From: a virus
Strand: one strand, 5' to 3'
Length of the DNA stretch: 64,000 bases
Virus record (IMG/VR): IMGVR_UViG_3300021960_000023
Span: 1 to 64,000 of that record
Shown here: positions 13,651-61,778 of the stretch, one piece after another
Numbering within the stretch: position 1 is the stretch's first letter
Layout of the letters: every line of letters begins with the position of its first letter
Notes under the pieces: generated by a model
Told to the model about the DNA's origin: nothing
The model's input: the letters and a program-made list of their open reading frames with translations, nothing else
Databases searched by the model: none
Program-made: the position numbers and the translations under genes

Positions 13651-14061
13651 ATGGACAAAAAAGACAAGCTACAAAAGTCATTAGAGAAAAATCTTCCTAG
13701 TAAAAGACCTCCGGCAGCTAAACTGCAGGACAAAATAGATATTAAGGATGATTATGAATTCTCTAGAAAAACCTATAAAGATTTAATCCAAACTGGAATG
13801 TATAGTTTGGATACGCTCGCCGAGCTCGCCCGCGAGAGCGAGCACCCACGTGCGTTCGAAGTATTAAGTAGAGCCATAAAAGACGTAGCAGATACTACAG
13901 AAAAGCTTATGGACTTACAAAAAAATAAAAAAGCTTTGAATAAAGAAGAAGAAGAAAAAGAAAAAGAGAGATTAGTTACTAATAATAATCTATTCGTAGG
14001 AAGCACAGCAGATTTACAAAAGATGATATTGGATAAAGATTTTATTGATGCAGAGGATTAA
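13651..14061 (+). CDS. 16: Small terminase subunit gp16
   Basis: The 136-aa product has the gp16 core (DDYEFSRKTYKDLIQTGMYS, then SEHPRAFEVLSRAIKDV) and the C-terminal signature VTNNNLFVGSTADLQKMI. gp16 recognises DNA and stimulates the gp17 packaging motor. Its end overlaps the gp17 start. Codons for residues about 54-70 (13812-13860) are strikingly GC-rich compared with the rest of the gene. Confidence 0.85.
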   Translation: MDKKDKLQKSLEKNLPSKRPPAAKLQDKIDIKDDYEFSRKTYKDLIQTGMYSLDTLAELARESEHPRAFEVLSRAIKDVADTTEKLMDLQKNKKALNKEEEEKEKERLVTNNNLFVGSTADLQKMILDKDFIDAED

Positions 14062-15655
14062 AAATAACGAATTCGGGTATCTAGGTAATCCTAATGTAAA
14101 ACGGGATGGTGTAGTCACAGAATTTAGTAAAGAAGAAATAAGGGAATACATGAAGTGTATGAAAGACCCTGCTTATTTTGCTAAAAAATATGTTAAGATT
14201 ATATCACTCGATGAAGGATTAGTACCTTTTGATTTGTATCCTTATCAAAAAAAGATGTTTAAACACTTCAATCAGAATAGATTTAGTATAGTGTTAGCAT
14301 GTAGACAAAGTGGTAAAAGTATATCTAGTGTGGTTTATATCTTATGGTATGCAGTATTTCACCCAGAGAAAACCATAGCTATACTTGCAAACAAAGGTGC
14401 GGTAGCCAGAGAAATGTTATCTCGTATTACATTGGCTTTGGAAAACTTACCTTTCTTTTTACAGCCAGGAACAAAGGCTTTAAACAAAGGGTCTATAGAG
14501 TTCAGTAATAATTCTAAGATACTAGCAGCGGCAACGTCTGGAAGTTCTATAAGGGGTTTATCCATTAACTTATTGTTCTTAGATGAGTTCGCATTTATTG
14601 ATGATGATGCTAAATTTTATACATCAACCTATCCGGTGGTATCGGCAGGTAAAGATACACAGATTATAATTTGTTCTACAGCAAATGGAATAGGTAATGT
14701 ATATCATAAGCTTTGGGAAGGTGCTTCTCAAGGAACAAATGAATATAAGCCTTTCAGAATAGATTGGTGGGATGTACCAGGAAGAAATAAAACTTGGCAA
14801 AAACAAACTATAGCGAATACATCGGAATTACAGTTTGAACAAGAGTTTGGTAATACATTCCATGGAAGAGGTAATACACTTATTGATGCTAATTACTTAT
14901 TAGCTCAACAAAGCGTTGAACCTGAATTTATAAAAGAGAATGCCTGGATATATGAAACTGCATTAGAAGGTCATGAATATATAATGACTGTGGATGTTGC
15001 AAAGGGAAGAGGACAAGATTACAGTACGTTTACTGTTATTGATGTTTCAACCGAACCGTTTAGACAAGTAGCTACGTTTAGAGATAACAATATATCTCCA
15101 ATGTTATTACCTGATATAGTTTATAAGTATGCTAAGTCGTATAATGATGCTTACGTGATTGTAGAAAGTAATGACCAGGGTTCAGTAGTTTGTAATGGAT
15201 TATATTATGATTTAGAATATGAAAACATGTTTGTAGAATCGTCAGTAAAGGCAAATGCAATTGGTGCTACGATGACACGAAGGGTAAAAAGAATAGGTTG
15301 TTCTACTATAAAAGATTTAATAGAGCAAGGTAAACTACATATCCAGGATGCTAATACAATTATAGAGATGAGTACATTTGTTTCTGTTGGATCTTCTTTT
15401 ATGGCTAAAGCACCTAACCATGATGATTTAATGATGAACCTAGTAATGTTTGCTTGGTTTACTTCAACAGATATATTTAGATCATTAACAGATATTGATA
15501 TGAAAGATATGTTATACAGAGAAAGATTAGCTGCTATACAAGATGACATGCTTCCGGTTGGTTTCTTAGGTGAGAAATCTGAAGAGCATAAATATACTAA
15601 AGACTCAGACGGTAATCTCTGGTTCGAACAAGACACTAAATTTACGAATTGGTAA
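14048..15655 (+). CDS. 17: Terminase large subunit gp17
   Basis: The ATPase-nuclease packaging motor. Counting from an in-frame TTG at 14045, the visible motifs are Walker A CRQSGKS at about residues 86-92, Walker B LLFLDE at about 176-181 and coupling motif CSTANG near 210. The RNase-H-like nuclease residues are D317 (TVDVAKGRGQD), E374 (VESNDQG) and D461 (NHDDLM). I chose ATG 14048 (MQRIKNNEF) over the TTG three bases earlier. Length about 535 aa is close to T4 gp17 minus its tail. Its gene overlaps gp16, and the next gene starts 1 base after its stop. Confidence 0.95.
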   Translation: MQRIKNNEFGYLGNPNVKRDGVVTEFSKEEIREYMKCMKDPAYFAKKYVKIISLDEGLVPFDLYPYQKKMFKHFNQNRFSIVLACRQSGKSISSVVYILWYAVFHPEKTIAILANKGAVAREMLSRITLALENLPFFLQPGTKALNKGSIEFSNNSKILAAATSGSSIRGLSINLLFLDEFAFIDDDAKFYTSTYPVVSAGKDTQIIICSTANGIGNVYHKLWEGASQGTNEYKPFRIDWWDVPGRNKTWQKQTIANTSELQFEQEFGNTFHGRGNTLIDANYLLAQQSVEPEFIKENAWIYETALEGHEYIMTVDVAKGRGQDYSTFTVIDVSTEPFRQVATFRDNNISPMLLPDIVYKYAKSYNDAYVIVESNDQGSVVCNGLYYDLEYENMFVESSVKANAIGATMTRRVKRIGCSTIKDLIEQGKLHIQDANTIIEMSTFVSVGSSFMAKAPNHDDLMMNLVMFAWFTSTDIFRSLTDIDMKDMLYRERLAAIQDDMLPVGFLGEKSEEHKYTKDSDGNLWFEQDTKFTNW

Positions 15656-15656
15656 T

Positions 15657-17108
15657 ATGAAATTTAAAGAATATATAGATCCTCAACCAATAGAGGAAGC
15701 AATAGATACCTCAGACCAGGCTTTAAAAAAGACCTCTGGTTTACATCTTGTTGTGCTCGGTCTAGGAGACGAAGAAGGTACATTTGCAGATGTAATACAA
15801 GAAGTAGCTAAAAACAAAAAAATAAAGTATACTCTAATTAACGTAGAAGAAGCTTATATAGCAGATGCGGATTTAGATGTTGGAAATCTTACGTTCCATA
15901 ATTACGACGGCGAGGATAAAAAGATTACCCTTGAGAAAGAAAAGTGTATCGTATTTGTAAGAGCTGGGGCAATACAAACATTAGTTTCCCAGGCTTTAGT
16001 ATCTACGCTAGGTGCTTATGGATTCTTTCTTATCAATGATTTAGAATCTATGATTTTATGTGATAACAAGCTATCAAGCACAATTCTTTTAGATAGGTAT
16101 GATATTAGTACCCCAAAAACTGCTATGATTAGTAACGTTAAATCTATAGAAATAGCACACGAAAAGATCGGCGGTAAATTCCCAGTTATAATTAAAACCC
16201 TTACAGGTACACAAGGTGTGGGGGTTTCTAAAGTAAACGATATGGCTTCGTTAATATCTGTAGCACAATCTCTATGGAAATATGATGCACAGATATTAAT
16301 ACAACAATTCCTAGATATAAAATCAGATATACGTACATTAGTTGTGAATGGTCATATCATAGGCGCAGCACAAAGAATAAAGCAAGATGATAAAGAATTT
16401 AGAAACAATGTACATTTAGGTGCTAAAACTGTACCATATAATCTATCGGAAGAAGAAAAAGAATTGATTAAGCGTGCAGCACGTGCGTCTGGTACTATGT
16501 ATTGTGGAGTAGATCACTGCAAAGTTGGAGATCAGTATTACATACTAGAAATAAATGGATCACCTGGAATACGTTCTTCGTTCATGGCTTATGATCCAGC
16601 AGATGGAAAAAAGATAGGCAAAATGTCCGACAAAGAAGTATTCGAAGTTATATTAGATTACTATTCTTCTGAACTACACCGAAGACCTTTATTTAGAACC
16701 GAAGCTGGTTATATAGAAAGAGTTATAGTAGAAGGATTAAATGCACCAGTAAGAGCTAAGTTTGATACAGGTAATGGCACAAATGCCACAATGTTACATG
16801 TAGATAAATTAGAAATAGATGGTGATACAGCTCATTGGGTTAAAAACGGACAGAAATTTAAAAATGAAATAATAGATGTATCACTAGCAAAGCATTTACA
16901 AACCACAGATAAAAGGCCTGTGGTAGAACTAACAATATCCTTTAATAATAAACAATACACGGTTCCTTTCGGATTAACTACAAGAGATTCTGCTTCAGAA
17001 ATGCTTGTAAATAGGAAGCTATTAAGTATATTTAAGGTATCAGTTAATCCAAATAGGAAGTTTATTTTATCGGATTGGGTTCCAAAGAACGATCGCAGCG
17101 ATGTGTAG
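15657..17108 (+). CDS. RimK-like ATP-grasp ligase fused to RimB-like retropepsin domain
   Basis: The 483-aa product has an ATP-grasp glutamate-ligase core: IIKTLTGTQGVGVS near residue 175, RTLVVNGHIIGAAQR, EFRNNVHLGAK, and ILEINGSPGIRSS near 296. The C-terminal domain (about 345-480) starts YIERVIVEGLNAPVRAKFDT with an aspartyl-protease DTG near residue 368, and continues with a LVNRKLLS segment, as in RimB-type retropepsins. In bacteria RimK adds glutamates to ribosomal protein bS6 and RimB trims them. The first residues MKFKEYIDPQPIEEA resemble a capsid-targeting leader with an I-x-E cleavage site. The target protein here is unknown. ATG 15657 follows the gp17 stop; an upstream frame extension overlaps gp17 and was rejected. 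Confidence 0.78.
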   Translation: MKFKEYIDPQPIEEAIDTSDQALKKTSGLHLVVLGLGDEEGTFADVIQEVAKNKKIKYTLINVEEAYIADADLDVGNLTFHNYDGEDKKITLEKEKCIVFVRAGAIQTLVSQALVSTLGAYGFFLINDLESMILCDNKLSSTILLDRYDISTPKTAMISNVKSIEIAHEKIGGKFPVIIKTLTGTQGVGVSKVNDMASLISVAQSLWKYDAQILIQQFLDIKSDIRTLVVNGHIIGAAQRIKQDDKEFRNNVHLGAKTVPYNLSEEEKELIKRAARASGTMYCGVDHCKVGDQYYILEINGSPGIRSSFMAYDPADGKKIGKMSDKEVFEVILDYYSSELHRRPLFRTEAGYIERVIVEGLNAPVRAKFDTGNGTNATMLHVDKLEIDGDTAHWVKNGQKFKNEIIDVSLAKHLQTTDKRPVVELTISFNNKQYTVPFGLTTRDSASEMLVNRKLLSIFKVSVNPNRKFILSDWVPKNDRSDV

Positions 17109-17197: not shown

Positions 17198-18889
17198 ATG
17201 GCATTTCAAGTATCACCAGGCGTTGAGGTCAAAGAGATCGACGCAACTAGCGTGATTCCCGCTGTTTCTACCAACATTGGTGGATTCGCAGGGTCATTTA
17301 ACTGGGGTCCGGTTGAAGAAATTAAAACAGTAGGTTCTGAATCAGAACTCGCTGAACATTTTGGAACACCAGATGACAGTACAGCTAAATATTTTCTTAC
17401 AGCCGCGGCATTCTTAAAGTATGGCAACGCGCTGAAGGTTGTTAGGGTATTATCAGGGCATGACAATGCTACTGGTGATGGTTCCGGACAACTGATTAAG
17501 AATAAAGATGATTATGATAATAACTACGCTAACGGATCCCTTTCAAAGGGTGATTGGGTTGCTAAATATCCAGGCGTTCTAGGAAACAGTCTGAAAGTAT
17601 CAGTAATATCGCAAGGTATTTCTAGCTTTTCAGGTTGGACATATGCAGGGTCATTTGACTCAGCACCAGGAACATCGGATTATGCAATTTCAATTGGTAA
17701 ATCGGGCGCAAACGACGAATTACACGTAGCAGTTATTGATGAAGATGGTTTATTAACAGGTACTGCAGGTACTGTGTTAGAAACTTTCGCATACGTTTCC
17801 CAAGGTTCAGATGCTAAGAAGAGTGATGGAACTACTAACTATTACAAAGAGGTTATTAATAATAACTCTAAGTATATTTGGTGGACAGATCACAACACTA
17901 ACTTAGCTGAAGCAGGCTCACTTATTTCAAGTGTAGCAGGAAACAGTTTTACAACACACACAGGCGCAATGGAAGCTTCATTGGCCGGTGGATCAGACGA
18001 TAACGCACCAACAGCAGGCGAAATTCTATTAGGTTACGACCTATTCGAAGACGCTGAAACAGTTGATGTTAACTTATTGTTTGCATGTCCAGATGCTAAC
18101 GGAGCAGAGACAATAGCAGAAGATCTTATTTCAATTGCAACAGCAAGAAAAGATTGTATGGCTTTTGTATCTCCACCGATAGAGGACACAGTAGGAAGTT
18201 CAGCTCCAGCAACAGACGTAATGGCTTTTGCAAACGGACTAACTTCTTCATCATACGCATCTTGCGATAGTTCAGCTCTATACGTATACGACAAATATAA
18301 CGACGTATATAGATGGATCGGGGCAGCAGGACACGTAGCAGGTTTATGTGCTAATACAGATCAAGTAGCAGATGCTTGGTTCTCACCAGCTGGTGTTAAC
18401 CGTGGTCAGTTATTTGGCGTAACTAAACTAGCATACAATCCTAAAAAAGCAGATAGAGATACATTGTACAAAGGAAGAGTAAACCCAATCGTTTCCTTCC
18501 CAGGACAAGGTATGATGTTATTTGGAGATAAAACTCTTCTTAGCAAACCTTCTGCATTCGATAGGATTAACGTTCGAAGATTGTTCATAGCATTAGAGAA
18601 AGCAATTTCTACAGCAGCTAAGGCACAATTATTTGAATTTAACGACGAGTTCACAAGAGCTAACTTCCGTAATATGGTAGAGCCGTTCTTGAGAGACGTC
18701 AAAGGTAGACGTGGGGTTACAGACTTTTCAGTAATATGTGACACTACGAATAACACCGGAGCGGTTATTGATGGTAACAGATTCGTGGCAGATATTTTTA
18801 TCAAGCCAGCAAGATCTATTAACTTCATTACACTAAACTTCATAGCAACAAGAACAGGCGTCGATTTCTCAGAAATCGCCGGCTCATAA
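17198..18889 (+). CDS. 18: Tail sheath protein gp18
   Basis: The 563-aa product starts MAFQVSPGVEVKEIDATSVI followed by STNIGGFAGSFNWGPVEE, the conserved sheath opening. The C-terminus (ARSINFITLNFIATRTGVDF) is the strand exchanged between sheath subunits in contractile tails. It forms the contractile tube around gp19. It lies immediately upstream of gp19 with a 13-base gap, the T4 order. Confidence 0.93.
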   Translation: MAFQVSPGVEVKEIDATSVIPAVSTNIGGFAGSFNWGPVEEIKTVGSESELAEHFGTPDDSTAKYFLTAAAFLKYGNALKVVRVLSGHDNATGDGSGQLIKNKDDYDNNYANGSLSKGDWVAKYPGVLGNSLKVSVISQGISSFSGWTYAGSFDSAPGTSDYAISIGKSGANDELHVAVIDEDGLLTGTAGTVLETFAYVSQGSDAKKSDGTTNYYKEVINNNSKYIWWTDHNTNLAEAGSLISSVAGNSFTTHTGAMEASLAGGSDDNAPTAGEILLGYDLFEDAETVDVNLLFACPDANGAETIAEDLISIATARKDCMAFVSPPIEDTVGSSAPATDVMAFANGLTSSSYASCDSSALYVYDKYNDVYRWIGAAGHVAGLCANTDQVADAWFSPAGVNRGQLFGVTKLAYNPKKADRDTLYKGRVNPIVSFPGQGMMLFGDKTLLSKPSAFDRINVRRLFIALEKAISTAAKAQLFEFNDEFTRANFRNMVEPFLRDVKGRRGVTDFSVICDTTNNTGAVIDGNRFVADIFIKPARSINFITLNFIATRTGVDFSEIAGS

Positions 18890-21231: not shown

Positions 21232-21888
21232 ATGAAATTAATTTCAGAGTATTTAGATAGTAATATAACAAATTACATTACCGAAGATAAAAAAGGTAAT
21301 AAAAGCCACGTCATAGAAGGCGTGTTTATGCAGGCCGATACGAAAAATCGAAATGGCCGTGTATATGAAAAAAAGATTCTAGAGTCAGCTGTTAACAAAT
21401 ATGTTAAAGAGCAGGTGACAACTGGTAGGGCTGTTGGTGAGTTAAATCATCCAGAAGGACCTACTATTAACCTAGATAAAGTTTCACATAAGATTACCGA
21501 ACTCAAATGGGACGGAAGTAATGTTATTGGAAAGGCATCAATATTGAAAACACCTATGGGTCAGATCGTCGAAGGTCTACTTGAAGGTGGAGTTAAGCTT
21601 GGTGTATCAAGTCGTGGTATGGGAAGCCTTGTGCAAAAGAATGGTGCTAGTTACGTGAATGGTGACTTTATGTTATCAACAGTAGATATCGTTCAAGACC
21701 CTTCCGCTCCGGAGGCATTTGTCAACGGAATTATGGAAGGTAAAGAATGGGTATGGGATAACGGTATATTAGTAGCGCAAGACATTGAATTAATTGAGAC
21801 TGAAATAAAGACAGCAAAGAATATCAACTCTTCGGATGTTGAGATCAGAGCCTTTAAGAATTTCCTCTCGAAACTTGTAAATAAATAA
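21232..21888 (+). CDS. 21: Prohead core protease gp21
   Basis: The 218-aa product has the gp21 serine-protease core: GVFMQADTKNRNGRVY, GRAVGELNHPEGPTINLDKV (the likely catalytic His in NHP) and LGVSSRGMGSL (the likely catalytic Ser), then STVDIVQDPSAPEAFV. gp21 cleaves scaffold, gp23 and capsid-targeted proteins after L/I-x-E. It lies between the core genes as in T4. It starts after GGAG at 21221-21224. Confidence 0.92.
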   Translation: MKLISEYLDSNITNYITEDKKGNKSHVIEGVFMQADTKNRNGRVYEKKILESAVNKYVKEQVTTGRAVGELNHPEGPTINLDKVSHKITELKWDGSNVIGKASILKTPMGQIVEGLLEGGVKLGVSSRGMGSLVQKNGASYVNGDFMLSTVDIVQDPSAPEAFVNGIMEGKEWVWDNGILVAQDIELIETEIKTAKNINSSDVEIRAFKNFLSKLVNK

Positions 21889-24993: not shown

Positions 24994-25440
24994 ATGAATA
25001 ATTTAGAAACAATAATGGAAATGTGGAAGAAAGATAGTGAGATTGATGAAATGAATCTTGACGAATCTTCCCGTGCAACAGCAAAACTACACTCAAAATA
25101 CCTAGAACTATATACAGTAAATAAGCTTAAGTTAAGAAAATTAGATCTTGATTTAAAGGTTATATTAAGAGATAAGTTCAATCACTATAATGGTAAATTA
25201 GATCAGGAAGATTTAGATCGTCTTGGTTGGGATTACGATCCACTTAATGGGTTAACGGTACTTAAATCTGATATGGATAAATACTATGATGCAGATCCTG
25301 TAATACAAGAGCATCAATCTAAGATGATCTATACAGAAGAACTAGTCGCTGCTTTAAAAGAAATATTAGAAAGCGTTAAGTGGAGACATCAGACAATAAA
25401 AAATATGATTGAGTGGCGTAAATTTACTAGTGGAATATAG
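24994..25440 (+). CDS. uvsY: Recombination mediator UvsY
   Basis: The 148-aa product is close in size and layout to T4 UvsY (137 aa): an N-terminal acidic helix, ATAKLHSKYLELYTVNKLKL, DKFNHYNGKLDQEDLDRLG, and a final IKNMIEWRKFTSG that mirrors the T4 ending HIQDMRAFEAG. UvsY loads UvsX (49981) onto single-stranded DNA coated with gp32. It is transcribed from its own early promoter and leads the uvsY-uvsW group. Confidence 0.85.
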   Translation: MNNLETIMEMWKKDSEIDEMNLDESSRATAKLHSKYLELYTVNKLKLRKLDLDLKVILRDKFNHYNGKLDQEDLDRLGWDYDPLNGLTVLKSDMDKYYDADPVIQEHQSKMIYTEELVAALKEILESVKWRHQTIKNMIEWRKFTSGI

Positions 25441-26305
25441 AATACACCAAGAAAAATTTAAAAACATGGATCGTTTTTACGATGTAGTTCGTAGCGCCAT
25501 GAATAAGTTAGGTCATACTGAATCAAATACTAAGGGAGATATTAACTTCTATAATCATTTAGAAAATAATAACAAGTTTAGTAATGATGTTATTATATTA
25601 AAGCCTACCGCGCCTACTTCAAAACATTTTACATTAGACCGAATGGGATATGCTAATACATCAGAATTAGCCTATAAAGAGCCAAAGGTAAATGATGATA
25701 TAGAGCAAATGGATTGGCAAGGTATTATAGATCTTAGAAACACCAAGCCGAATAAATGGGATGATTCCATTTTACTTAAATGGCGACCAGCTAAAAAGAT
25801 TAAACAACATATCCTTATCATTGGCCAGCAGCCCCACGACGAAACAGTAAATGGATTTGGATTTGGTGATCATTGGAAAAAACTTACCATGATCGTGGAT
25901 TATCTATTTAATGAACCTATTATTGTTAAACTACATCCAGCTATGAAAATACGCGGTAAAGTAAAAGATCAAATAGATAGATGGATTCAAAGAGGAATAG
26001 ATGTACGAATTGGGTATAATAGCATTCATGACTTTTTACCTTATACTACTTGTGCTATTGTAGATAATAGTACAGCAGGAATAGAATGCTTAATGCACGA
26101 AGTTCCAGTTATATCATACGGTTGGCCAGAATATCATTGGGCAACTAAAAAATTACAAACATTACCCCAATTAGATATGCTAATACACAACCCAGAAGAA
26201 TGGAACAACCCTGTATACGCAAGACAGTTTATTGAATGGTACATAAACCATTACCTTTGTACTGATATAAATAATACCATGAGAAGATTAAAAGAACTTT
26301 TATAA
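25430..26305 (+). CDS. Glycosyltransferase-like protein (capsule-synthesis type)
   Basis: About 291 aa from GTG 25430, which overlaps the uvsY stop; ATG 25466 is an alternative. The second half looks like a GT-B nucleotide-sugar site (VKLHPAMKIRGK, CAIVDNSTAGIECLMHEVPV, ISYGWPEYHWATKK), similar to capsule polysaccharide transferases. The first half is unrecognised. It may glycosylate DNA, virion protein or host surface. Its place between uvsY and uvsW, translated from overlapping frames, is notable since T4 has no such gene there. Confidence 0.5.
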   Translation: MEYRIHQEKFKNMDRFYDVVRSAMNKLGHTESNTKGDINFYNHLENNNKFSNDVIILKPTAPTSKHFTLDRMGYANTSELAYKEPKVNDDIEQMDWQGIIDLRNTKPNKWDDSILLKWRPAKKIKQHILIIGQQPHDETVNGFGFGDHWKKLTMIVDYLFNEPIIVKLHPAMKIRGKVKDQIDRWIQRGIDVRIGYNSIHDFLPYTTCAIVDNSTAGIECLMHEVPVISYGWPEYHWATKKLQTLPQLDMLIHNPEEWNNPVYARQFIEWYINHYLCTDINNTMRRLKELL

Positions 26306-44975: not shown

Positions 44976-45051
44976 GGGGCGGTAGCTCAGTAGGGAGAGC
45001 GCCTGGTTTGCAACCAGGAGGTCGTGGGTTCGATCCCCTCTCGCTCCACCA
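44976..45051 (+). tRNA. tRNA-Ala (UGC)
   Basis: A 76-base cloverleaf: acceptor GGGGCGG/TCGCTCC with two wobble pairs, D stem GCTC/GAGC, anticodon stem CCTGG/CCAGG with loop TTTGCAA and anticodon TGC at 45009-45011, T loop TTCGATC, one U-U mismatch in the T stem, and a genomic CCA at 45049-45051. It lies between the primase-like gene and groES. Confidence 0.95.
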
Positions 45052-49727: not shown

Positions 49728-49979
49728 ATGCCAAGTATAAATTTAATGCCTAGGAAAAGACATCCTAAGGATAAAAGACCTTCTAGCCCAATGCCATTCG
49801 ATATTGCGTTAAGAAAGTTTAGAAAGGCCTGCGATAGAGCAGGTATTGTTAACGAAGTTCGTAAAAGAGAATTTTATGAAAAACCAACCGCAAAGCGCAA
49901 ACGTAAAAAAGCAGAGGCAGTAGCCCGAACCAGAAAAGAAGAGCGTATGAATAAACTAGGACCAGCAAGGAGATATTAA
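49728..49979 (+). CDS. rpsU: Ribosomal protein bS21
   Basis: The 83-aa basic product has the S21 core: [20 protein letters not shown] followed by [20 protein letters not shown]. bS21 sits on the 30S platform and helps choose mRNAs. Phage copies are known in SAR11 and other phages and may retune host ribosomes. It is coupled to uvsX by a 1-base gap. Confidence 0.92.
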
Positions 49980-54956: not shown

Positions 54957-56345
54957 ATGAATTCATTTAAATCTTTTACAGTTGAACCTATTCTTATTAA
55001 AGAAGTTTCTGGGTTGTCGGCAACAGAGTTAGACAAACCAAACGGACAAACTGGCGAACATCGTTTAGATATCCTAAAGAAACTTATAAAAGGTAAAACA
55101 CCTTTGGAATTAAAGAAAGGCGGAACTACGGTCGTTACTGATATAGAAGATGCATTAGCTAAACTTGATGTTTTCCTTAAGCAACCTTCTAACTTAGTAT
55201 TCCAAACAAAAAATGGTCCAATTAAACTAACACAATTAGCAAAGAGTAAAGTCTTTGGCGGTGGTGTTGGTGGAGCAGGAGCTGGTACGGCAGACACAGA
55301 AAGAAATGAATCTCATAATGCATGTATGATGAAAGCTATGGTAGATAACCCAGGGCACGATTTATCATACTATGATGACGAAGTAATAGCTCAGGCTTAC
55401 AAAGATAATGGCACATCAAATGTTAGTGCTAATACAGACAAGATATTAGAAACTCCAGAAAATTGGTGGGCATCGTCATACTATATAACAAAATACCTAG
55501 TTAGTAAAAAGCTAATTCATAAGAACATGGAATTCCATCGTGGATCAAAAGAGATGATAAAGATATATGCTATGAAAAATCTAGCATTTAAAAATTCAGG
55601 CTTTGCCCCACTAAAAGATGATAAGTGGAATCCAGGCGATGTATGGGCAATACAAAAAGGATTTAATTTAGATAAGTTAAATACTATGTCAATACACGGT
55701 TTTAATAAATCTTTAATTGCGGCATTTACAAAAAGAGAAATAGTAGGTATATCACTAAAACTAGTTAAGAATGATTCTGTTCCTTTTAGTGTAAATAATT
55801 ATAAACAACCACCGGAAGTACTCCTACACAAGATAGCTTCTATGGGGTTTGAATCTGGAAGAGGATCGTTTTGGTCTTCAAAAGGTTCTTTTATTAAAAC
55901 TACGTCATTACAATTAGACTTAAAAGATAACACTCCTGGTGGAACTATTAAGGCTGAAGTAAAAGGTAAAACATCTAGAGGTGGTGGAATTAGCTGGGGC
56001 ATTATGCAAGATATAGTCCAACATGAAGCAGGTAAAAAATTACCTAAACATACTGGTGGTATAACTAAATCAGCTAAAAATATCGCAATGGGTAAACCAA
56101 AAGATGTACAAGCTATGTACAAAATGTTTAATGAATTTTATAAGAACGTAAGCTATGAAGCTTTTGTAGCTGAACTAGAAGAAAAAGATTGGCAATGGAT
56201 TAGTGCTAAACTAGCTTCTTTAACTTTACTTTATACTATAAACAAAGCTGGTGGCAAGAAATCTAATGCCATCGTAACAAGAATGATTAACTACGCCGGA
56301 TCAACGACTGCTGAAGGCGGAGTATATGTTAAATTAGGAAAATAA
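54957..56345 (+). CDS. Capsid-targeted-leader protein of unknown function (462 aa)
   Basis: The first residues MNSFKSFTVEPILIKEVSG look like a T4 capsid-targeting leader with an I-K-E/V site. The middle has ESHNACMMKAMVDNPGHD and NPGDVWAIQKGFNLDKLNTM, followed by REIVGISLKLVKN. This WNPGDVW ... ISLK pair might be a nuclease-like core, but that is only a motif guess. It starts the packaged-protein cassette and is followed directly by the KWDG gene. Confidence 0.55.
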   Translation: MNSFKSFTVEPILIKEVSGLSATELDKPNGQTGEHRLDILKKLIKGKTPLELKKGGTTVVTDIEDALAKLDVFLKQPSNLVFQTKNGPIKLTQLAKSKVFGGGVGGAGAGTADTERNESHNACMMKAMVDNPGHDLSYYDDEVIAQAYKDNGTSNVSANTDKILETPENWWASSYYITKYLVSKKLIHKNMEFHRGSKEMIKIYAMKNLAFKNSGFAPLKDDKWNPGDVWAIQKGFNLDKLNTMSIHGFNKSLIAAFTKREIVGISLKLVKNDSVPFSVNNYKQPPEVLLHKIASMGFESGRGSFWSSKGSFIKTTSLQLDLKDNTPGGTIKAEVKGKTSRGGGISWGIMQDIVQHEAGKKLPKHTGGITKSAKNIAMGKPKDVQAMYKMFNEFYKNVSYEAFVAELEEKDWQWISAKLASLTLLYTINKAGGKKSNAIVTRMINYAGSTTAEGGVYVKLGK

Positions 56346-57584
56346 ATGATATCATTTAAAAACCATAACCTTACAGAAGCCAAAAACACTCACATGACTC
56401 ATATAGAGGATTTAGTGTTGGATGGCGGAGTTAAGGGAGCCCGCCAAGCTATCAACGCTCTACGCAGTATGAGAGATATGTTGAGTGGTCACGCAAAATC
56501 ACCTGTAGACGTGACCGTAAAATGGGACGGGGCTCCCGCCGTATTCGCAGGTGAAGATCCAAGAGATGGATCGTTCTTCGTAGCTAAAAAAGGAATCTTT
56601 AATGCAGATCCTAAAGTATATAAAAGCCACGAAGATATAAAGGCTGATACCTCAGGTGATCTATCCAAAAAGCTTATTATGGCTTTTGATGGATTAAAGG
56701 ACTTAGGTATCAAGGGTGTAATACAAGGTGACTTTATGTTTGATAAATCGGACCTTAAAGGTGAAACGATTAACGGACAAAAGATGATTACCTTTCACCC
56801 AAACACTATTGTTTATGCAGTACCATATGGATCTAAATTAGAGAAAGATATATCTAAAGCAGATGTTGGTATTGTATGGCATACATCTTATAAAGGTGGA
56901 ACATTCGAAACTATGCAAGCTTCTTTTGGCGGTGACATAGTTGGTAAATTAAAAAAGAGTTCTAAGGTATGGCAGGTAAATGCAGACCTAGAAGAGCTAT
57001 CAGGTAAAGCTACATTTACCGCAGCAGACAATATGAAAGTAACTAAATTGTTATCTGAAGCTGGTAAACTATTCCAAAAGATATCTTCTGGGGTATTAAA
57101 AGAATTAGAAAACAATAAAGAATTAAATTTAGTTATTAATGTTTATAATAATAGTATGGTGAGAAAAGGCCAAAGAATTAAAGACGAGAAGAAACACGCT
57201 AAGGGATTAATCCAGTTTGTTACTGATCGATACGCTAAACAAATCGATAAGCGTAGTTCACAGAAAGGAAAAGATATACAAATAGGTAAAAGAGATGAAT
57301 TATTATCGTTTTTCTCTACTAGTAACTTAAAAAACTTAGAAAATGTCTTTAAATTACAGAATTATCTTGTAGACAGTAAATTAATTATTATAAATAAACT
57401 TAACAAACTAAATAAAATCGGAACGTTTGTTAAAACAACATCCGGATTTAAAGTAACCAACCCAGAAGGTTTTGTTGCTATAGATCGTATGGAAGGTGGA
57501 GCAGTTAAGCTTGTTGATAGATTGGAATTTTCTGCCAACAACTTTAGCAAAGATATTATAAAAGGTTGGGATAATCCTAACTAA
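56346..57584 (+). CDS. KWDG nucleotidyltransferase-superfamily protein (DUF6267-like, ligase-like)
   Basis: The 412-aa product has a ligase-type lysine motif VTVKWDGAPAVFAG with K59, a motif III-like GVIQGDFMFD near residue 125, and a C-terminal NPEGFVAIDR then AVKLVDRLEFS near 372-395, which mirror motif IV (EGxV) and motif V (K388). So it may be a DNA or RNA ligase or capping-like enzyme. MISFKNHNLTEAKN is a leader with L-T-E/A. It follows the 54957 gene without a gap. Confidence 0.62.
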   Translation: MISFKNHNLTEAKNTHMTHIEDLVLDGGVKGARQAINALRSMRDMLSGHAKSPVDVTVKWDGAPAVFAGEDPRDGSFFVAKKGIFNADPKVYKSHEDIKADTSGDLSKKLIMAFDGLKDLGIKGVIQGDFMFDKSDLKGETINGQKMITFHPNTIVYAVPYGSKLEKDISKADVGIVWHTSYKGGTFETMQASFGGDIVGKLKKSSKVWQVNADLEELSGKATFTAADNMKVTKLLSEAGKLFQKISSGVLKELENNKELNLVINVYNNSMVRKGQRIKDEKKHAKGLIQFVTDRYAKQIDKRSSQKGKDIQIGKRDELLSFFSTSNLKNLENVFKLQNYLVDSKLIIINKLNKLNKIGTFVKTTSGFKVTNPEGFVAIDRMEGGAVKLVDRLEFSANNFSKDIIKGWDNPN

Positions 57585-57602
57585 AATGGGAATTCAAAGG
57601 AT

Positions 57603-59069
57603 ATGCAAATTAAATCATTTAGTGATTACTTAGTCGAAGACACAAAAGAAGTCACATTCGTGTTCGGGCGTTTTAATCCGCCTACTATTGGTCATGAGAA
57701 ACTATTTGACCAAACAAAAAAACTAGCCAGATCTGGCACATATCGTATATACGCATCTAAATCTGTAGATGCTAAAAAGAATCCATTACAATTTAAAGAC
57801 AAAGTTAAGTTTTTACGTAAGATGTTTCCTAAACATGCTCGCCAAGTTATGGCTGATAAGGATGTAAGAAACGTTTTAGATATTGCTACCAAATTATACG
57901 ATCAAGGATTTACAAAAGCAAGTATGGTAGCAGGTTCAGATAGAGTAAAAGAGTTTGAAGTATTACTTAACAAATATAATGGTGTTAAGTCTAGACATGG
58001 TTTTTATGAATTCCAAGGTCTGATTAAAGTTTTAAGCGCAGGCGAGCGCGACCCGGACGCAGAAGGTATATCAGGTATGTCAGCATCTAAAATGCGACAA
58101 GCAGCAGTAGATGGTAACCTACCATTATTTGCAAAAGGATTACCAGCAAGATTTTATCCAACAGATTTATATAATGCTGTTAGAGCAGGTATGGGTTTAA
58201 AATCAGAAGGATTTAGACCACACGTTGAATTAGAAACTGTATCAGATATCAGAGAAGATTACGTGGAAGGAAAAATATTTAGAATTGGTACTATGATTCG
58301 TATGAAAGAATCAGGTGAAGTAGGTAAAGTGGTTATAAGAGGAACTAATTATATTCTTGCAGAATTCAACGGAAGAAAAAGACGTTGTTGGCTAGATTCA
58401 ATTCAAGAAGAAGGCGGTGCTGGAGATCATGGCACAGGCAAGCTTACCAAGAAATACAAAAAAGATACTCCGAAGATGGAGCTAAAAGATTCACCTTATA
58501 ATAAAATAGTTAAAGACAATACGATCTTATCCTTCGGTAAGAAGAAAGATAAGAAAGAAGGTTATAACGACGGTGATTCTTCCCGTGGAGATAAAAATTA
58601 CGATTCATTTAAGACTGGAAAAAAATCTACAGATTCTAAAAGAAGAGCTCAGCAGAATAAGCAAAAGGATATGAAAGATGATAATCCAGATGCATACAAA
58701 GATTTACCAGGTGATAAGAAAGCAAGAAAGAAAGGTTTACCACAATCTAAGTTTACAAGTAAATATAAACAGATGTATGGTGAAAACTTTGAAATGACTT
58801 TTGAAGATTTTATTATAGAGAATAAAGGTCAGGTAAAAACAGCTTTAAAAAAGAAATCAAAAGCAACAGGTGTTTCAATGTCTATACTAAATAAAGTATT
58901 TGATAGAGGATATGCTGCATGGAAAACAGGTCATAAACCAGGAACAACTCCAGTACAATGGGGATTGGCAAGAGTTAACTCTTTCTTAGTTGGCGGTCCA
59001 GTTTGGAAAAAGTTTGATAGCGATCAAGCGGAACTAGCAAGAAAGGGCGGATTTAGCCCAGGAAAATAA
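57603..59069 (+). CDS. HxGH-type adenylyltransferase with DUF5824-like C-terminus
   Basis: Residues 18-35 contain VFGRFNPPTIGHEKLFDQ (GRFNPPTxGH), and near 156-166 ISGMSASKMRQA, the two motifs of cytidylyl/adenylyltransferases such as NadM. The central basic part is likely flexible. The C-terminal end (KTALKKKSKATGVSMSILNK, GYAAWKTGHKPGTTPVQWGL) matches DUF5824. The leader MQIKSFSDYLVEDTKE has an L-V-E/D cut site. It may act on NAD precursors or on RNA ends in the new host cell. Confidence 0.72.
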   Translation: MQIKSFSDYLVEDTKEVTFVFGRFNPPTIGHEKLFDQTKKLARSGTYRIYASKSVDAKKNPLQFKDKVKFLRKMFPKHARQVMADKDVRNVLDIATKLYDQGFTKASMVAGSDRVKEFEVLLNKYNGVKSRHGFYEFQGLIKVLSAGERDPDAEGISGMSASKMRQAAVDGNLPLFAKGLPARFYPTDLYNAVRAGMGLKSEGFRPHVELETVSDIREDYVEGKIFRIGTMIRMKESGEVGKVVIRGTNYILAEFNGRKRRCWLDSIQEEGGAGDHGTGKLTKKYKKDTPKMELKDSPYNKIVKDNTILSFGKKKDKKEGYNDGDSSRGDKNYDSFKTGKKSTDSKRRAQQNKQKDMKDDNPDAYKDLPGDKKARKKGLPQSKFTSKYKQMYGENFEMTFEDFIIENKGQVKTALKKKSKATGVSMSILNKVFDRGYAAWKTGHKPGTTPVQWGLARVNSFLVGGPVWKKFDSDQAELARKGGFSPGK

Positions 59070-59080
59070 AAAGGAATAAA

Positions 59081-59539
59081 ATGAAATCATTTAAAGAATT
59101 AAGAGAAAATAATACTAAGTTTAAGTCATCTAATCCTACGAAAGATGTTGCAGGATATCCTGAAGCAAAGGGCGTAGTTGGAAAAATTATTAAGTTTAGT
59201 GATAGAGATGGCAGAGGAGTTGGCATCGGAACAACAGTCTTAGATAATGGTAAACCTGCAAAAAATGGAAGTAGAGACGAAGTTATTAAAGTAATTAAAA
59301 AACATGATATTAAAGGATTTAGATTTGGTGGAGACTTTATGAGAAAAGAAGTTAACGCAAACAAAAACCTAGAATATCCAACTTCTCTTGCTAAGAAAAC
59401 CGGACTAGTTAAATCAATAGATGGTTATAATGCATCTAAATTTTTACTAGACGTAATTAAAAAATTTCCAAAAACGGAAACAAAAGGTAAAGAATATGTG
59501 GATTACGATAATGTAATGATCCACTTCATCGAGGTATAA
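59081..59539 (+). CDS. Capsid-targeted-leader protein, unknown (152 aa)
   Basis: MKSFKELRENNTKFK is a leader of the M-K-x-F-K-E type with L-R-E/N. The rest (VVGKIIKFSDRDGRGVGIGT, GFRFGGDFMRKEVN) is basic and beta-like, with no recognised family. It sits 11 bases after the adenylyltransferase gene in the cassette. Confidence 0.6.
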   Translation: MKSFKELRENNTKFKSSNPTKDVAGYPEAKGVVGKIIKFSDRDGRGVGIGTTVLDNGKPAKNGSRDEVIKVIKKHDIKGFRFGGDFMRKEVNANKNLEYPTSLAKKTGLVKSIDGYNASKFLLDVIKKFPKTETKGKEYVDYDNVMIHFIEV

Positions 59540-59540
59540 A

Positions 59541-60557
59541 ATGAAATTTAAAGAATTAAGAGACGTAGTAGAAAAAATGTCAGGTTCTAAATTAACAGGA
59601 CAAGAGATATCTGTTTGGTACAGAAAGAACAAAGACGTAGATAAAGCAGCTAAGAAAGACAAGAATATTAAAAAAGCTGTTGAGATAGCATTAGATCACG
59701 GCGGAGCTATGAACTTTGCTATTAAGAAGATCGAAAAGATTAAAAGAGGTTTAGCTGACAATCCTCATGTAGCTAAAGCACTATCTTTTGCAAACTTTGG
59801 TGAAGACAAAGATACTATTTCAGAAGGTACATGGGCAGTTCCTGATTCATATGAGAATTTACAAAAACTACAATTTAATTTCTTAAATAAAAAAACCCCT
59901 GGTACTAAAGCCAATGCTAAACTACTCGCTAGAAAAATATACGGCATATTCGGGGATGATTCTTTCTTTGATGATTTACTAAGAATAGAAACCGATCCAG
60001 ACCCTAAAGTCGATCTAAGAGATATAATTGTTAAGCATCTAGAAGATTGGAACATGAAATTTAAAAAGGGTGGAGTCTATGTAATCACCCACGCACCTAA
60101 AGACTGGTGGGAAAAAGAAGGAGTAGGTGAATCAGCTAAGAAAAGAAAATCTGGTAATATTAAACCAACAGGTCTTGGTTCTCCTGTAAGAGGTAAACTT
60201 ATGCCTGTAACGGAAGGTGTTAAAAAAGTAGATTCATTGGATAAAGCAGAAAGAATGCTTAACTATAAGATTAAAGAACTACAATATAAAACAGCATTAA
60301 AAACGTTTAATGAATATGATGCAGATCCAGAAGTAAAGAAAGAAGCTAAAGGAGCTACAGGATTAAACAATGCAGCTTTAGCAAAAAGAGTTCCAGAAAG
60401 ATTTAAAGGGATAGATCAAAAAACAGCCCAAAGAGTAGCAGATGCAGTTAAGCCAAAAGGTATGATTAGCACTAAACTCTATATGGAGTTAGGTGATCTT
60501 TGGGATAAAAAGAATACAAAAGGGTTTGAAGCTCTTCTTAAGAAACATAAGGTATAA
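59541..60557 (+). CDS. Capsid-targeted-leader protein, unknown (338 aa)
   Basis: MKFKELRDVVEKMSGSKL opens the protein, and FGEDKDTISEGTWAVPDS has an I-S-E/G site near residue 96, so a longer leader might be removed. Central DDLLRIETDPDPKVDLRDII and VYVITHAPKDWWEKEGVG are conserved-looking but unrecognised. The basic helical C-terminus has LNNAALAKRVPERFKG. Function unknown. Confidence 0.58.
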   Translation: MKFKELRDVVEKMSGSKLTGQEISVWYRKNKDVDKAAKKDKNIKKAVEIALDHGGAMNFAIKKIEKIKRGLADNPHVAKALSFANFGEDKDTISEGTWAVPDSYENLQKLQFNFLNKKTPGTKANAKLLARKIYGIFGDDSFFDDLLRIETDPDPKVDLRDIIVKHLEDWNMKFKKGGVYVITHAPKDWWEKEGVGESAKKRKSGNIKPTGLGSPVRGKLMPVTEGVKKVDSLDKAERMLNYKIKELQYKTALKTFNEYDADPEVKKEAKGATGLNNAALAKRVPERFKGIDQKTAQRVADAVKPKGMISTKLYMELGDLWDKKNTKGFEALLKKHKV

Positions 60558-60559
60558 AC

Positions 60560-61075
60560 ATGAGAAAATATAATCCAACAAATTCAAAAATTACAGTAGA
60601 CGAAAGCGGTAGAGTAAAATTTAAATATCCGCAAGAAGATATATCTGAAGCTAAGATGAAAGATCTTCTTCGTAAACATAAAAGAGAATTACAAAAAGCA
60701 CAAAGAAGCGGTAATTTAGAATTATCTAAAAAAGCAGAAGAAGATCTAATGCAATGGGCAATGGATGCTGGAGAAATTAAAACTGACGATCCAGATGATT
60801 TTAGCGATTGGTTAGATGATAACCTTGACGATATAATTAAAGGTAGAATTAAAGAAGATGTAGATTTATCAGAAGCTAAATTTAATTCAAAGAAAGAATT
60901 ATCAGATGTTGCAAAGCTAGATAAACTACTAGAGAATGCATACAAAGGTATGGGTAAATTACAACATGGTAAGTCAGAATACCTAAGAAAATTAAATGAT
61001 GGTATTGTAGAAGCTAGAAGAGCTCTAGATACTTACGTTGATGCTATTAAGAGTGGAAAGTTAGACGACAAATGA
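60560..61075 (+). CDS. Putative internal virion or core protein with two SEA sites (171 aa)
   Basis: YPQEDISEAKMKDLLRKHKR and REDVDLSEA-like residues (actual KEDVDLSEAKFNSKKEL) give two I/L-S-E/A sites like that in gp23. The middle is a charged helix (KAQRSGNLELSKKAEEDLMQ) and the end a coiled coil. It is the type of protein that gp21 would trim. Function unknown. Confidence 0.58.
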   Translation: MRKYNPTNSKITVDESGRVKFKYPQEDISEAKMKDLLRKHKRELQKAQRSGNLELSKKAEEDLMQWAMDAGEIKTDDPDDFSDWLDDNLDDIIKGRIKEDVDLSEAKFNSKKELSDVAKLDKLLENAYKGMGKLQHGKSEYLRKLNDGIVEARRALDTYVDAIKSGKLDDK

Positions 61076-61404
61076 AAAAGTTTAAAGCATTTAAGAAAGA
61101 AGAAGATTCACCTTGTTGGCCTGGATATAAGCAGGTTGGAACTAAGATGAAGAATGGTAAAGAAGTTCCTAACTGTGTTCCAATTGGGGAAGATTTAGAC
61201 GAAGCTCCATTAGTAATGAATGATATGGATATGGTAAAAGCTATATTAAAAAAGGTCGAAGATGATATAGCAAAGCTTAGTTTAAGGAAGAAAATAGAAC
61301 AAGCCTGGCCGAAGATTCAGATACTAGCTAAAATGGCTGGTTATAAAGTAACCAAAACTGCACAAGAAAAAGGCAGAATATTTAGGTCGGACATTAAGAA
61401 ATAA
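61072..61404 (+). CDS. Capsid-targeted-leader protein with CWPGYKQVGTK motif (110 aa)
   Basis: MKKFKAFKKEEDSPCWPGYK, QVGTKMKNGKEVPNCVP and GEDLDEAPLV give the C-W-x-G-Y...NGKxVPNCVP module often seen in phage proteins linked to heads and proteases, plus two cleavage sites (I-G-E, L-D-E). Two cysteines could bind metal. It overlaps the previous gene by 4 bases (ATGA). Confidence 0.58.
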   Translation: MKKFKAFKKEEDSPCWPGYKQVGTKMKNGKEVPNCVPIGEDLDEAPLVMNDMDMVKAILKKVEDDIAKLSLRKKIEQAWPKIQILAKMAGYKVTKTAQEKGRIFRSDIKK

Positions 61405-61778
61405 TGTATACTTTTAAAGAAAAGGATTTTGGAATGTATGAAGGTAAAACTTATCCACTAGAAACTCCTATGTTAGAAGGTGGACCAGAGCCAGAGTTAA
61501 ATAAACCAAAGCGAAGTGGACCAGATGATCCTAAAAAATTCGTGGTTTATGTAAAAGACCCAAAGACAGGAAACGTTAGAAAAATAAATTTTGGTAATGA
61601 AAAAGATTTTGATGGCGGTAACGCTAAGATAAATAATAAAGATAGAGCTAAGGCTTTCTCAGATAGACATAATTGTCCAGCTAAGAAAGATAAACTATCT
61701 CCAGGTTATTGGTCTTGTAACTTACCGAGATATGCTAAAGAGCTAGGACTTACAGGTGGTGGAAATTACTTTTGGTAA
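61404..61778 (+). CDS. KPxR...RHNC...YWSC protein (124 aa)
   Basis: The product has NKPKRSGPDDPKKFVVYVKD, PKTGNVRKINFGNEKD, DRHNCPAKKDKLSPGYWSCN, a module I know from phage capsid-linked and structural genes. It contains a C-x10-C pair likely to bind metal. MYTFKEKDFGMYEGK is a leader-like start. Its start shares a base with the previous stop. Confidence 0.6.
   Translation: MYTFKEKDFGMYEGKTYPLETPMLEGGPEPELNKPKRSGPDDPKKFVVYVKDPKTGNVRKINFGNEKDFDGGNAKINNKDRAKAFSDRHNCPAKKDKLSPGYWSCNLPRYAKELGLTGGGNYFW

Follow-up and report, generated by a model that had tools for sequence, protein, structure and literature searches.

A RimK–RimB fusion protein of T4-like phages with a predicted capsid-targeting leader

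A T4-like phage, represented by a 130-kb IMG/VR virus record (IMGVR_UViG_3300021960_000023), encodes between gp17 (terminase) and gp18 (sheath) a protein that joins a complete RimK-type ligase and a RimB-like retropepsin in one chain, in the order K-B. We refer to this protein as RimKB and analysed it within positions 1 to 64,000 of the record, a stretch of 64,000 nucleotides that we call the window. RimKB of T4-like phages is predicted to be a bifunctional alpha-L-glutamate ligase and polyglutamate protease. In the reading that we favour, and consider probable, RimKB carries both activities as a head-internal virion protein and enters the host with the DNA, where bS6 would be its most likely target. 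The parts of this reading differ in strength. Packaging in the head is very likely and injection into the host is rather likely, whereas the choice of host bS6 as the target is plausible but tentative.

The RimKB reading frame spans 15657-17108 of the window on the + strand (483 residues). The ATG at 15657 is taken as the correct start, because an in-frame GTG at 15570, which was considered and rejected, lies inside gp17 and is not conserved, and because a stop interrupts the frame immediately 5′ of the initial MKFK[DE]Y in several close relatives. The local gene order is gp16, gp17, RimKB, gp18, gp19, gp20 and recurs in relatives, confirming the late-gene position within the packaging-tail block that the original prediction had given (Table 1). 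The closest relatives of the gp23 of this phage are those of Methylophilales phage Melnitz and Pelagibacter phage HTVC008M. A TAAATA motif is found upstream of the RimKB gene in 43 of 55 cases in the window clade and 30 of 45 in the Mosig clade. It was rejected as a late promoter, since it coincides with lysine-tyrosine codons that are conserved in the upstream gene and so is no independent evidence of one; ATAAATA showed no enrichment in the window.

Table 1 Features of RimKB, its neighbours and other leader-bearing proteins in the window. A slash marks a predicted cut.
Feature	Position	Strand	Basis
Leader MKFKEYIDPQPIEE, T4 capsid-targeting-like; predicted prohead-protease cut after residue 14 (IEE/A)	15657..15698	+	Sequence; pattern in relatives and T4 ipII/ipIII; pLDDT <50
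RimK pre-ATP-grasp domain, residues 29-135	15741..16061	+	TIGR00768 from residue 48; VIA-align to RimK 7qys/5zk6, model residues 29-343
RimK ATP-grasp domain, residues 136-308	16062..16580	+	PF08443 4.9e-37; alignment with RimK 7qyr, 5zct
RimB-like retropepsin domain, residues 351-470	16707..17066	+	PF05618 9.4e-8; profile match 9g59/9g58/2pma
Retropepsin catalytic motif D370-T-G	16764..16772	+	D370, G372 invariant in 39 aligned relatives
gp17 terminase large subunit, upstream neighbour	14045..15655	+	Recovered 5′ of relatives by tblastn
gp18 tail sheath, downstream neighbour	17198..18889	+	Recovered 3′ of relatives by tblastn
gp21 prohead protease (Peptidase_S77), predicted processing enzyme, begins MKLISEYL	21232..21888	+	PF03420 2.9e-43; leader scan
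DUF6267 protein, leader MISFKNHNLTE/A, unrelated to RimKB	56346..57584	+	Pfam; leader recurs, with variation, in its relatives
Nucleotidyltransferase-like protein, leader MQIKSFSDYLVE, unrelated to RimKB	57603..59069	+	Pfam; strict T4 pattern present

Both domains gave significant profile matches and have intact motif residues, which bears out the earlier description of an ATP-grasp core and a DTG retropepsin in one chain. The ATP-grasp domain is of RimK type, scoring 127.8 bits with PF08443 (cut-off 21), and the TIGR00768 score of 140.1 bits is slightly below the cut-off of that family (143.4). The metal- and ATP-site residues K138, K180, R249, N251, D286, E298 and N300 are kept in alignments with Pseudomonas RimK and with the RimK structures 7qyr and 5zct, and are invariant in nine diverse relatives. 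An AlphaFold model of RimKB (mean pLDDT 77, residues 1-24 below 50) matched RimK structures with Z of 25-26, including the RimK-RpsF complex 5zk6. The C-terminal domain scored 32.5 bits with PF05618 (cut-off 27) and contains the DTG motif; in the Mosig clade, 77 of 78 complete proteins have FD[TS]GN. PF05618 is named 'Zn_protease', although its members have since been recognised as retropepsins. A profile built from the C-terminal domain matched the solved RimB/RloA-type proteins 9g59, 9g58 and 2pma (1.2e-9 to 3.9e-7), and it is this profile search that supports the retropepsin fold, because the fold search with the whole model was filled with ATP-grasp proteins.

We compared RimKB to the known RimK and RimB systems. 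It shares the ATP-grasp fold and motif residues with RimK of E. coli and Pseudomonas, but these are free-standing proteins without a leader or protease domain. Similarly, its C-terminal domain is homologous to the RimB/RloA retropepsins, which are separate proteins, whereas the phage version is a diverged domain of a ligase. The original prediction also held that bacteria encode RimK and RimB separately, and this is wrong, as RimBK hybrids of bacteria have been published: Little et al. 2025 (PMC11957791) report them for 12% of rim-bearing accessions. The hybrids likewise combine a RimK ligase and a RimB retropepsin in one chain; however, they are described as bacterial proteins and have RimB N-terminal to RimK, while the protein studied here has the order K-B, begins with a leader of capsid-targeting type and is encoded by phages. 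The B-K hybrid of Desulfotalea psychrophila (DP2392) had protease activity on polyglutamylated RpsF and gave no glutamylation of the tested RpsF (PMC11957791), for which reason bS6 may not be the target of RimKB. The RimK 'S6 glutaminyl transferase' of cyanophages S-RIM12, S-RIM8 and S-CAM8 is also a RimK-family ligase of T4-like marine phages, but lacks both leader and RimB domain and belongs to a separate clade. A limited literature search found no paper describing a packaged phage RimK, which does not prove that there is none.

The N-terminus of RimKB was compared to those of T4 ipII and ipIII, which both start MKTYQEFIAEA. The point of comparison is a leader of the ipII/ipIII type, [FY]xx[FY][IL]xE, while the bodies of the proteins differ, such that only the leaders are comparable. 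In T4 this leader targets proteins to the prohead core (PMC9958956), and gp21 removes the N-terminal peptides of the internal proteins, IPI-III and Alt among them (PMC3012670); for RimKB, cleavage is predicted from the motif. A strict leader pattern, M-x(1,5)-[FY]-x-x-[FY]-[ILV]-x-E, was present in 32/32 distinct N-termini of the Mosig clade, 23/29 of the Melnitz clade (RimK only) and 26/57 of the window clade, where a looser core of the pattern was present in 53/57; these counts come from related sequences and are not independent of each other. The window RimKB itself has the relaxed core and not the strict pattern. The background among first-ATG reading frames was 2 of 214 in this genome, both probable leader proteins, and 0 of 230 in three Mosig stretches. 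The pattern persists across phage relatives that are only 27–29% identical, and F6, [FY]9, [IL]10 and E12 are fixed in all 27 distinct N-termini aligned for the Mosig clade, with variation at neighbouring positions. It is kept where the gene sits elsewhere, near DNA polymerase in Mosig, and where the RimB domain is missing, in Melnitz. No leader was found in RimK of the three cyanophages or of E. coli. The residue after the presumed cut (n = 117) is E in 35, A in 31, Q in 16, K in 15 and D in 15 cases, and is thus often not A or G; an ISE/A motif also occurs in gp23 of this phage. The proposal of a packaging-like leader with an I-E-E/A cut began as a guess on one sequence, and with hundreds of relatives and the T4 internal proteins behind it, the argument for a packaging leader with an I/L-x-E cut site is now strong.

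By its distribution the leader is modular, being common to unrelated protein bodies in the same genome, and unrelated bodies with one shared leader are how T4-type internal proteins are described (PMC3012670). Alongside the nucleotidyltransferase-like protein and the DUF6267 protein, which has a variant form of the leader, a HAD-like protein outside the window (78272-78868 of the full record; L094:14773-15369) begins MINFKTYLSEA; among its relatives, the T4 leader pattern is present in 37 of 39 distinct N-termini. The start of gp21 fits the leader loosely. The leader also gives a simple means of predicting which further proteins of marine T4-like phages are packaged. At 54957-61778 of the window, a series of proteins has MxSFK- or MKxF-like starts (MNSFKSF, MISFKNHNLTEA, MQIKSFSDYLVE, MKSFKEL, MKFKEL and MKKFKAF), some with internal [IL]SE[AG] sites; this block probably encodes proteins of the core or packaged in the head.

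Scans of IMG/VR returned at least 595 and at least 221 stretches bearing relatives, and a Melnitz query returned 68, sets which may overlap. A search for the fusion in related phages had been named as a check, and K-B fusions, the order of the window protein, were found in Mosig, YerA41 and the gut contigs. Where contigs extend far enough, most of the closest relatives have the order gp17-RimKB-gp18, while a more distant group starting MKSISEY has the gene elsewhere in the genome. In the isolates Mosig (host Pelagibacter HTCC1062) and Melnitz (host OM43 H5P1), the gene neighbours those for DNA polymerase. In a tree built from 31 ATP-grasp parts, thinly sampled outside the leader clade and with long branches, every leader-bearing phage protein groups with YerA41 in a single clade (97/98) that excludes RimK of E. 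coli and of cyanophages. Within it lies the Melnitz group, which has RimK only, and the protease domain was therefore probably lost there. Three MAG contigs from gut samples encode K-B fusions with leader-like starts, and one of them adjoins a baseplate wedge gene, so that at least this one is from a phage. K-B fusions starting MKKFKEHL and MKTFNQFL (L255:2774-4417 and L257:2759-4435) lie on contigs binned as Firmicutes/Clostridia; the contig that L255 comes from is 410 kb long and may represent a very large phage. A RimB-like C-terminal domain was also observed in proteins of Bacteroidota/Flavobacteriales (L250:3260-4489, L251:3260-4489, L252:1274-2473 and L253:3260-4459). Their N-terminal half, which had no Pfam match (tested for L251), resembles a decayed ATP-grasp domain, and the L251 gene has a chromosomal context.

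Particle data are available for Yersinia phage YerA41, in which g112, a 'Ribosomal protein modification protein', is marked as identified by LC-MS/MS in purified particles (PMC7354516). The fused homologue, YerA41_066, is annotated 'structural protein' and adjoins ribonucleotide reductase genes. We equate g112 with YerA41_066 since both are beside ribonucleotide reductase genes, and by this gene-order argument the fused homologue appears to be present in purified YerA41 particles. The T4-type leader is absent from the YerA41 homologue. The particle list comprises 63 proteins, including many replication enzymes (PMC7354516), and contamination is therefore possible.

We propose that the leader brings RimKB into the prohead core, where gp21 would remove it at IEE/A, and that DNA would be packaged around the protein in the head. 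RimKB would then enter the host together with the phage DNA at infection. Its ligase would extend a host protein at the C-terminus with glutamates, which its own retropepsin, with two such domains pairing within an oligomer, would trim or reset. The precedents of RimK/RimB and of T4 Alt, a packaged modifier of host RNA polymerase, would make bS6 the most likely single target, with the effect of retuning translation in favour of the phage; RimKB is compared with Alt and IPI in its delivery. A broader proposal, that a large phage-specific lineage of virion-carried, injected RimK-RimB fusions polyglutamylates bS6 before any phage gene expression and so reprograms the host ribosome, is possible but speculative. 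Well-known examples of phage enzymes that are injected and modify host machinery are few, T4 Alt being the classic, and a polyglutamylating enzyme with a built-in eraser in the particle would, if true, add new chemistry to that short list. The carriers are marine phages of wide distribution, phage isolates of SAR11 and OM43 among them, and ribosome glutamylation would gain a concrete and testable use during infection.

Alternatively, RimKB could be packaged but act in head assembly or in the particle, glutamylating and trimming a phage structural or core protein and not primarily modifying the host. The late-gene position beside gp17 and gp18 would suit this role, as would a leader that by analogy with T4 directs to the prohead core and a YerA41 homologue reported in particles. 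However, the location beside DNA polymerase genes and not structural ones in Mosig and Melnitz argues otherwise, and acidic C-terminal tails suited to RimK are found in just 2 of 150 reading frames of this genome, which led us to reject phage proteins with such tails as ligase targets. We consider an assembly role unlikely. It is similarly improbable that RimKB is an auxiliary protein expressed in the infected cell, where it modifies host bS6 or makes poly-glutamate and the leader has some other role. Cyanophages of the same family have RimK genes annotated in this way, and two of these phages carry theirs in the neighbourhood of photosystem and purine genes, but cyanophage RimK has no leader and is not part of the leader clade, whereas the RimKB leader matches the tested T4 targeting signal and is common to unrelated proteins.

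More difficult to set aside is the possibility, which we still doubt, that RimKB is packaged but has lost ligase activity on bS6, and that the K-B fusion instead makes or edits a different acidic peptide tag, or else a small peptide, perhaps in counter-defence. The lack of RpsF glutamylation by the tested bacterial hybrid, which retained protease activity, is in keeping with this, and so are the many substrates of ATP-grasp ligases of this superfamily and the description of T4 internal proteins as defence proteins (PMC3012670). Against it, the closest solved structures are those of RimK itself, including the complex with RpsF, and the C-terminal domain resembles RimB/RloA, which cleave polyglutamate.

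Elsewhere in the window, a phage bS21 gene is located at 49728-49979 (4e-17); it is also found in three of the four related records checked and is annotated in Mosig. As bS21 is common among pelagimyophages, it was not used as evidence for the reading of RimKB. A weak match to a capsule-synthesis domain (PF05159, 3e-5) at 25409-26305 lies shortly 3′ of gp23 and directly before a helicase-like gene, and a tRNA-Ala (TGC) gene is present at 44976-45051.
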